A DNA stretch of 64,000 bases from Pontibacterium granulatum (GTDB lineage: Bacteria; Pseudomonadota; Gammaproteobacteria; Pseudomonadales; Balneatricaceae): positions 62,001-126,000 of the forward strand of contig NZ_JASBRH010000011.1 in NCBI RefSeq assembly GCF_029961155.1, given 5' to 3'. Each line of letters opens with the position of its first letter. Position 1 is the stretch's first letter. A model generated the notes under the pieces. It saw only the letters and a program-made list of their open reading frames with translations. It was not told the DNA's origin and ran no database searches. Both the position numbers and the translations under genes were made by a program. Positions 7,263-62,748 of this stretch are shown piece after piece.

Positions 7263-7529
7263 GGGAAGGCGCGAGTAAGTCCTGTATGTGCTCTGGCTAT
7301 CGGGAAGGTTCACAATCAAGGAATCGCTTTGCAGTAATGTTGAAACCTTGCAAAAAGCGCTGACACCGAGTGTGGATCTTCCCGATAGCCCCGCAGGGCA
7401 AGTCCTAATGCCTGCATCTGCTGTGTTGCAGTTCTTGCTAAGGACTAAGGCCATTAACTGCGAACTGCGCCTTGCATCTACAGGCTTTAGGACTTGCAGA
7501 GCACTCACGAGACTTATTCGCGCCTTCCC
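7263..7529 (+). mobile_element. Structured palindromic repeat, copy A (267 bp)
   Basis: The ends are 33-bp inverted repeats (GGGAAGGCGCGA at the left, its complement at the right; 28 of 33 positions pair). Inside are two palindromic arms: 7295-7390, closed by GGCTATCGGGAAG and CTTCCCGATAGCC, and 7398-7497, closed by GCAAGTCCTAA and TTAGGACTTGC. The core GCCCCGCAGGGC (7388-7399) lies between the arms. The whole would fold as a three-armed cruciform. Copy B is the same element in the opposite orientation, also 267 bp with no gaps. No target duplication is visible. It fills most of the 523-bp pykA/dctB gap; the rest of that gap shows only a TATAAT at 7685-7690. Confidence 0.85.
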
Positions 7530-21067: not shown

Positions 21068-21334
21068 GGGAAGGTGCGAATAAGTCCTGTTAGTGCTCTG
21101 CAAGCCCTTAAGCCTGTATATGCTAGGCGCAGTTTGCAGGTAATGGCCTTAGCCCTAAGCAAAAACTGCAACAACGCAGATGCAGGCTTAAGGGCTTGCC
21201 CTATGGGGCTTTCGGGAAAATTCACACTCGGTGTCAGCACTTTTTGCAAGGTTGCAACATTCCTGCAAAGCGCTTCCTTGATTGTGAATCTTCCCGAAAG
21301 CCAGAGTGCCTACAGGACTTGTTCGAACCTTCCC
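21068..21334 (-). mobile_element. Structured palindromic repeat, copy B (267 bp, inverted relative to A)
   Basis: Read on the minus strand it aligns with copy A over all 267 positions without gaps, at roughly 80-85% identity by eye. The arms are 21100-21199 (closed by GCAAGCCCTTAAGCCTG and its exact complement, 17 bp) and 21207-21302 (closed by GGCTTTCGGGAA and its complement). The core is GCCCTATGGGGC at 21198-21209. The outer stem pairs 27 of 33 positions. Where A and B differ in the arm stems, both strands of the stem have changed together. Confidence 0.85.
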
Positions 21335-54768: not shown

Positions 54769-55032
54769 GGGAACCTGCGAATAAGTCCGAGACTTTCTCT
54801 GCGGTCGATAAAACAGCTAAATGCGCGAAAGGCAGTGCAGTGGAATGACGAGTCCTTTCCAAGCTGCCTGACAAAGCAGAAAGCTGTTTTAGCGCCCGCC
54901 CTACGGGGCATTCAGAGCAATTCGATCTCTGCGTTAGTGATTTTCGCCTGGCAACCAGCATGGCTGTAACCACTGTCTTGACCTCGAACTGCTCTGAATG
55001 CCAGAGGTGTTTCGGACTTGTTCGCAGGTTCC
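54769..55032 (-). mobile_element. Structured palindromic repeat, copy C (264 bp, divergent arms)
   Basis: The outer stem (GGAACCTGCGAATAAGTCCG at the left, its near complement at the right) keeps AATAAGTCC of copies A and B. The core GCCCTACGGGGC (54898-54909) matches theirs. The arms are 54810-54890, closed by AAAACAGCT and AGCTGTTTT, and 54908-55001, closed by GCATTCAGAGC and GCTCTGAATGC. These arm sequences do not resemble A or B. It fills most of the 446-bp gap between the coiled-coil gene and ygfB. Confidence 0.78.
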
Positions 55033-62679: not shown

Positions 62680-62748
62680 GGAAGGTGCAAACAAGTCCTG
62701 TGAGTGCTCTGCAAGCCCTTAAGCCTACAGGACTTATTCGCACCTTCC
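62680..62748 (+). mobile_element. Structured palindromic repeat, copy D (69-bp internal deletion)
   Basis: The stem is GGAAGGTGCAAACAAGTCCTG at the left and CAGGACTTATTCGCACCTTCC at the right (two mismatches). The loop GAGTGCTCTGCAAGCCCT, then TAAGCCT, matches the first part of copy B on the plus strand, so D is B-like with about 200 bp removed. TAA flanks both ends (62677-62679, 62749-62751): the rlmI stop on one side, part of the AAGGAG of the next gene on the other. Confidence 0.8.

Follow-up and report, generated by a model that had tools for sequence, protein, structure and literature searches.

Of the repeats described in PMC10969869, PMC3049150, PMC2229807 and PMC3116915, those that come nearest to the element reported here are BOX, CIR, REPIN and NEMIS, and all comparisons with them are by description. 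CIR repeats of Caulobacter and Brucella (PMC2229807) likewise have two long hairpin arms, a linker and a conserved fold, but they are set apart from repeats that pair end to end, whereas the ends of our element are paired. BOX elements of the pneumococcus (PMC3049150) are also MITE-like and modular, with a stable predicted fold and modules that are gained or lost; there, boxB stands in tandem between boxA and boxC, while our family has a single hairpin, present once or as two inverted copies, within variable ends. REPINs (PMC3116915) resemble our element as inverted doublets of a structured unit with compensatory changes and a possible clover fold, but are linked to RAYT transposases, whereas the ends here are of IS5 type. 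NEMIS or Correia elements (PMC2229807) are similarly small mobile repeats whose transcripts fold, and cutting by RNase III has been proposed for them, but the available part of the source describes no two-arm layout.

No description of this hairpin family was found in the literature searched, which comprised open-licence papers, with preprints outside its scope. A known RNA family was ruled out for the ten loci searched in Rfam, where no family reached its gathering score; over an arm, the highest-scoring model was that of a plant miRNA precursor, at E = 0.0014 and 29.6 bits, where 297 are required.

The element, copy C, lies in a 64,000-nt window of the Pontibacterium granulatum genome, the whole stretch of DNA that was analysed, which also holds two copies of like architecture, A and B. 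Arms were searched for with the covariance models R1, R2 and R3. R1 draws on 17 X arms out of the 19 in this genome, and R3 on 36 arms, none of them from the five genomes of the genus (G000-G004); for some R3 rows the source is a named record or a metagenome contig (L158, L161, L165, L178), two of these being of unstated genus. The features, in window coordinates, are as follows.

54770..55032, plus strand, 263 nt: copy C, a two-arm IS5-type MITE, with an empty site in two sister genomes and relatives in its own genome
54770..54793, plus strand: left terminal inverted repeat of C, GGAACCTGCGAATAAGTCCGAGAC, 24 nt, 92% complementary to 55009-55032
54797..54801, plus strand: inner border CTCTG of C, complementary to CAGAG at 55002-55006 (by eye)
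54801..54899, plus strand: Y arm hairpin of C, motif on the plus strand (R3 match 54812-54888, E = 6e-5)
54898..54909, no strand assigned: core of C, GCCCTACGGGGC, in which a small hairpin is possible
54907..55002, minus strand: X arm hairpin of C, 96 nt, motif on the minus strand (R3 match 54992-54917, E = 8e-13)
55009..55032, minus strand: right terminal inverted repeat of C, pairing with the left end
7264..7528, minus strand, 265 nt: copy A, GGAAGG lineage, architecture as C (X arm match 7305-7380, plus; Y arm match 7409-7486, minus)
21069..21333, plus strand, 265 nt: copy B, GGAAGG lineage (Y arm match 21111-21188, plus; X arm match 21217-21292, minus)
62680..62748, plus strand: minimal 69-nt armless element with GGAAGG-type ends

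The X arm has its motif on one strand and the Y arm on the other, the two being inverted copies, so that each strand reads, 5' to 3', end, motif hairpin, core, anti-motif hairpin, end. Its paired 24-nt ends place copy C outside the CIR definition of two arms and a linker without terminal pairing. The inner border, as CTCWG/CWGAG, recurs among many two-arm relatives (by eye), and copy A is inverted relative to copy B. On one strand the cores of A, B and C approximate GCCC-TNCG-GGGC by eye, resembling a hairpin with a UNCG-type tetraloop. The armless element at 62680-62748 directly follows a TAA stop and directly precedes the TAAGGAG..ATG of a downstream gene with the same orientation (rough ORF call), filling the gap between the two genes almost wholly.

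The earlier note had given C an end motif, core and arm order in common with A and B, and a similar length. This layout is confirmed, with the element at 54770-55032, one base off. It also goes beyond chance: nine full-length relatives of C, 77-93% identical, lie elsewhere in its own genome, and the end motif, allowing up to three mismatches, occurs 41 + 42 times in the 4.66-Mb genome against 4 + 6 for a reversed control. Chance similarity of C to A and B as a member of an unrelated family is excluded.

In this genome 34 such elements were counted, of which 33 are small (48-315 nt) and too short for a transposase gene; the other is an insertion sequence of 1163 bp (L083:601-1763; G000:C66:27488-28650) with C-type ends, GGAACATGCGAATAAGTCC / GGAACCTGCGAATAAGTTC, the left end of copy C being of the same type. 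They were drawn from 39 stretches, five being set aside with no clear end pair at the given places (L063, L064, L068, L072, L078; L063 and L078 are half elements); the lone-end loci L070, L088, L092 and L096 lie outside the element counts, L089 and L095 were covered by the R3 search only, and L068 was searched with R3 as well. A piece of the L083 transposase scores 272 bits for the NCBIfam IS5 family (cut-off 140) and matches Pfam DDE_Tnp_1, and the gene is broken by an in-frame stop; L083 is a possible former source of elements. R1 and R3 searches did not find the conserved hairpin arms in L083. Partial forms are of three kinds, those without an X arm (174 nt; L058, L075, L084), those without a Y arm (169 nt; L066) and armless ones (48-69 nt), while L061, L069 and L087 have additional small hairpin-like inserts in their arms; in these three C-type elements the inserts stand at like places, as expansion forms. 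A short inverted pair of GGATACTG-type ends at the start of L068 is perhaps a minimal element, outside the counts, and a weak R3 match close to an end motif (L089:585-660, E = 0.0025) is perhaps a decayed one.

Evidence of mobility comes from the sister genomes G002 and G003, in which the flanks of C occur without the element (...GTGTCGGGG / AAGTGCTAGG...); in G001 and G004 the match is limited to the gene neighbouring C. YTAR adjoins the left end in 14 and the right end in 9 of the 34 elements, where chance (4/256 tetramers) would give about 0.5. Flanks are alike at three or more of four letters in 12 of the 34, which is not clearly in excess of YTAR-preserving shuffles (mean 8.1; 278 of 5000 reach 12). 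Copy C is flanked by TATG/TAAG, and two armless elements have identical flanks (L059, TTAG/TTAG; L081, CTAA/CTAA). Since armless elements of 48-69 nt exist, the arms are not strictly needed for insertion, unless they were lost later. The assignment of copy C to the IS5-type MITEs, as a non-autonomous member of a lineage with GGAACC ends, is well supported, as is that of A and B to a sister lineage with GGAAGG ends. Their shortness without room for a transposase, ends like those of the resident IS5-family L083 and YTAR targets are shared with IS5-family MITEs, a label which we take to mean Tourist-like in the wide sense. They differ in carrying conserved hairpin arms that the searches did not find in L083 and that recur inside other ends.

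The earlier note had considered the arms of C unrelated to those of A and B, which the X arm alignment and the R3 matches rule out. At E <= 10, R3 gives exactly six matches in the window, and these are the two arms of each of A, B and C. The X arm consensuses of the two groups (Xa and Xc, for the A and C lineages) are each 96 nt long and align nearly without gaps at a score of 67, against 9.3 +/- 7.4 in structure-preserving shuffles, none of 1000 being as high. The Y arms of the two groups give a weaker signal (30 against 8.4 +/- 7.4; 4/1000 as high), and Xa against the reverse complement of Xc scores 29.5 (3/1000), well under the forward score. Between X and Y arms in the same motif orientation, shuffles as high number 7/1000 for Ya-Xa, 19/1000 for Ya-Xc and 8/1000 for Yc-Xc, with Xa-Yc not significant (194/1000). 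R1, made from X arms only, also matches seven Y arms (L060, L067, L077, L079, L091, L085, L080; E 3e-9 to 3e-4), the remaining Y arms among the loci given being missed at E <= 10; owing to arm palindromy, the models match the anti-motif strand of an arm as well. Judged by these alignments and, most cleanly, by R3, the arms of A, B and C are one homologous hairpin family. That the GGAACC and GGAAGG lineages had a common two-armed ancestor, and that each arm is a copy of one hairpin, are likewise well supported.

The arms are built on a well-supported plan of outer stem, internal loop, inner stem and apical part. The internal loop has the well conserved consensus CAAGGCG facing CAACGCNG (CAAGGCG / CAACGC), from which the Y arm of C departs. 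We examined three alignments: A1, the 17 X arms of this genome (L061 and L087, which carry inserts, left out); A4, 46 X, Y and single arms; and A5, 36 arms with the own genus left out. In A5 the C, A, A, G and C of CAAGGC, like the A, A and C of AACGC, either do not vary or are conserved in at least 90% of the rows; in A4 one A of CAAGGC falls below 90%. Paired cells make up 97.2% in A1, where 16 of 29 pairs have changed on both sides, and both values lie beyond all 500 shuffles; the number of pair types is equalled or exceeded in 9 of 500. In A4 93.9% of cells are paired, with 349 double-changed cells against 104 in shuffles; in A5 94.7% are paired and 267 of 680 pair cells are double-changed yet paired, against 77.5. 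Sliding the A5 structures by 1-3 columns lowers the paired fraction to 35-40%. The structures were derived from the motif strand, and cells of related sequences are not independent events. Because nearly every pair varies, the number of pairs that show a double change anywhere does not exceed the shuffled number in A4 or A5 (334 and 204 of 500 reach it). In 52 X arms the unpaired columns, taken together, show no higher conservation than the paired columns (mean majority 0.73 against 0.71).

Within the genome, four arm sets hold 19 double-changed, still-paired cells against 19 single-broken and 2 double-broken ones, with about 0.5 double-changed cells expected in each of the two X sets for which this was computed. 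In the C-group X arms, paired columns change (0.052) no less than apical ones (0.034). Broken and compensated cells being about equally frequent within the genome, the case for selection therefore rests on the comparison between lineages and between genera. At one X-arm pair, L085 shows the change on one side and the second element of L074 (G000:C22:275830-276093) on both, as if a stepwise compensatory change had been caught inside one genome. That the arms diverged through paired substitutions on a common fold is well supported, and selection on the fold is supported by the counts; the proposal of the earlier note that palindromy and length are kept while sequence drifts thus holds, paired change exceeding shuffles in A1, A4 and A5.

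The kind of imperfect pair tells the two strands of an arm apart. On the motif strand of the X arms, G-U exceeds A-C by 90 to 9 (52 rows, the best of 90 in alignment A3, which mixes X arms, Y arms and antisense reads and whose count over all 90 rows therefore serves as no main evidence), and Y arms on their own motif strand, which is the opposite strand of the element, give 126 to 16 (42 rows, with L086, L119, L148, L150 and L172 left out and five others placed by hand). Pairs fixed from A4 give 33 to 3 for X and 32 to 4 for Y. In the X set counted at 87 to 9, four pairs hold 52 of the 87 G-U cells; without them 35 G-U face 6 A-C. The motif strand is predicted to be more stable than its opposite in 50 of 52 X arms and 36 of 42 Y arms, and in 54 (RNA parameters) or 56 (DNA parameters) of 58 single-arm elements. 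This roughly tenfold excess of G-U over A-C on each motif strand points to selection acting on a single strand that folds, and each arm seems to be kept as such on its own motif strand. Because G-T is also the better mismatch in DNA, the excess does not separate RNA from single-stranded DNA.

The hairpin is spread well beyond this genome. In the sample of the order, R1 matched arms in 39 of 293 genomes, from 24 of 119 genera; the class sample gave 31 genomes of 369 and the phylum sample 24 of 398. The samples each include the own genome, have some genomes in common and were searched with stricter filters. One family outside the class accounts for 15 of the 24 phylum matches, and there R2 gives 3-53 matches in each of 15 genomes. 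In twelve genomes with at most 150 candidates scored each, R2 finds from one to at least 140 arms, the latter in a 2.7-Mb genome (150 scored), and 44 in the own genome. Within the genus, C is matched in all five genomes and B in three; 11 genomes from other genera of the same family, among those listed, gave no R1 arm match. The distribution is wide, but patchy as for a mobile element. Named hosts among 32 stretches are Marinobacter, Alloalcanivorax, Microbulbifer and Neptuniibacter, alongside metagenome bins.

In other genomes the same hairpin lies, as read by eye, inside ends such as GGAAGGTRCGAAYAAG (L117, L138), GGGAGCCTCTGAATAA (L119, L123), GGGCACCTCTAATAA (L122), CAGGCTGTTGAAAAACC (L128), CCCGGCRAC (L183, L186, L192), AGCCTKTTCAAAG (L196), TACTCCTTCAACTTAA (L199) and TACCTTCATAAATAAA (L194, L242), and a single genome, G771, has four kinds of ends round one hairpin family (L242, L243, L246, L248; by eye). 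Among these end types, all read by eye, some may grade into each other as variants, whereas others seem plainly distinct. Many of the elements with other ends lie beside YTAR letters, and two-arm and single-arm forms are both present. In L193 and L195 the two arms, each matched by R1, are arranged otherwise and the flanking sequence differs. An exact-pattern search in three genomes for an insertion sequence with TTAACCCGGC ends found the ends only, none at insertion sequence length, with inward-facing close pairs spanning 280-285 bp between outer edges. By blastn, one Microbulbifer element had no match in plasmid, phage or E. coli collections and copy C none in plasmids; as to viral carriage, the one contig from a pattern search contained no R3 match.

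The explanation that we find best as a whole joins the identity of the elements, their common ancestry and a role of the arms in single-strand folding and recognition, and we put its probability at about 0.5. The motif strand of an arm would fold as a single strand, either as DNA exposed in replication or repair or as RNA, and the folded strand would be recognised by something common to many IS5-type systems, which would help the element to be mobilised or kept. Such recognition would explain why the same hairpin is retained inside different transposon ends. The folding and recognition mechanism, taken alone, we infer tentatively, at slightly worse than even odds. In attC sites of integrons, palindrome and unpaired features outweigh sequence, and the folded single strand is recognised. 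Going by this general description, the arms may be likened to attC sites in their palindrome and unpaired features, although the ends here are IS5-like.

A first alternative is that the arms act in host transcripts, where an RNA hairpin in an operon or UTR would alter termination, polarity or decay, for example through RNase III cutting as proposed for NEMIS, and where two-fold symmetry would make either orientation tolerable. It would account for the G-U excess on the motif strand and the position of the motif arm in the 5' half of each strand, and genes in the same direction do flank 19 of the 34 elements of this genome. Divergent genes, however, flank 11 of the 34 (both counts by rough ORF call), and single-arm elements, in which orientation can be read, show no preference for the transcribed strand. 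Of 80 candidate loci, hand-chosen away from contig starts and not random, 58 were taken by eye as single-arm; with L261 and L264 set aside, their motif strand agrees with both flanking genes in 10/24 cases, with the left in 23/50 and with the right in 25/52, many of the elements being near-identical within a genome. Nor is their orientation biased with respect to GC skew (27/58). The lack of orientation bias speaks against a role in host transcripts, which we consider unlikely if still deserving of some weight, and is expected if the function is the element's own. On the strength of these sequence patterns, we favour a function that would serve the element, in its mobilisation or its retention, through recognition of the folded single strand. 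The armless elements of 48-69 nt, two of them with identical flanks, count against such a function.

Less probable still, and in our view improbable, is an origin of the pattern without functional selection, in which template switching or quasi-palindrome correction copies one strand of a stem on to the other, re-symmetrising palindromes and mimicking compensatory change. Double changes even between copies of one genome fit this process, as does the pair changed on one side in L085 and on both in the second L074 element, but it gives no reason for G-U to exceed A-C on one particular strand, or for internal-loop letters to be kept from genus to genus. Two further accounts are very hard to sustain. 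One sees the arms as passive relics of an ancestral transposon, alike only through the youth of the copies. Most arms within one lineage of this genome are indeed 85-96% identical to the reference copy (L061, L086 and L087 lower), but the same fold is present in 24 of the 119 sampled genera of the order, as well as in further orders of the class and one family outside it, with stem letters widely replaced in pairs, and the covariation counts contradict passive descent.

The other, proposed in the earlier note, has unrelated hairpin modules swapped between fixed ends and a fixed centre; it is highly improbable, since the arms are homologous, the ends differ between genomes (by eye, one hairpin family inside different ends, rather the reverse of swapping) and the discrete arm types are unmixed in 18 of the 19 full-length elements. 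These 19 fall into GGAAGG and GGAACC groups, of which, by nearest reference, ten combine X-c and Y-c arms with CC ends and eight X-a and Y-a arms with GG/GA ends. The exception, L077, which has CC ends, a Y arm nearest the A lineage (0.79 vs 0.61) and an X arm slightly nearer the C lineage (0.70 vs 0.63), is either the sole mixed case or a third lineage.

Under the preferred reading, folding and recognition of the motif strand, the hairpin may have a wider meaning, which we put forward as a possibility with the odds somewhat against it. It would be a mobile hairpin of wide occurrence, tied to no particular transposon end. IS5-type miniature elements with many different ends would carry it, singly or as two inverted copies, in Gammaproteobacteria and in one more family of the phylum, and a common partner would recognise the folded single strand, possibly as RNA. 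Covariance models built from the arms allow direct tests of that partner and of RNA against single-stranded DNA. The usual view of miniature elements is one of ends with filler between them, whereas in this family it is the filler that is conserved.
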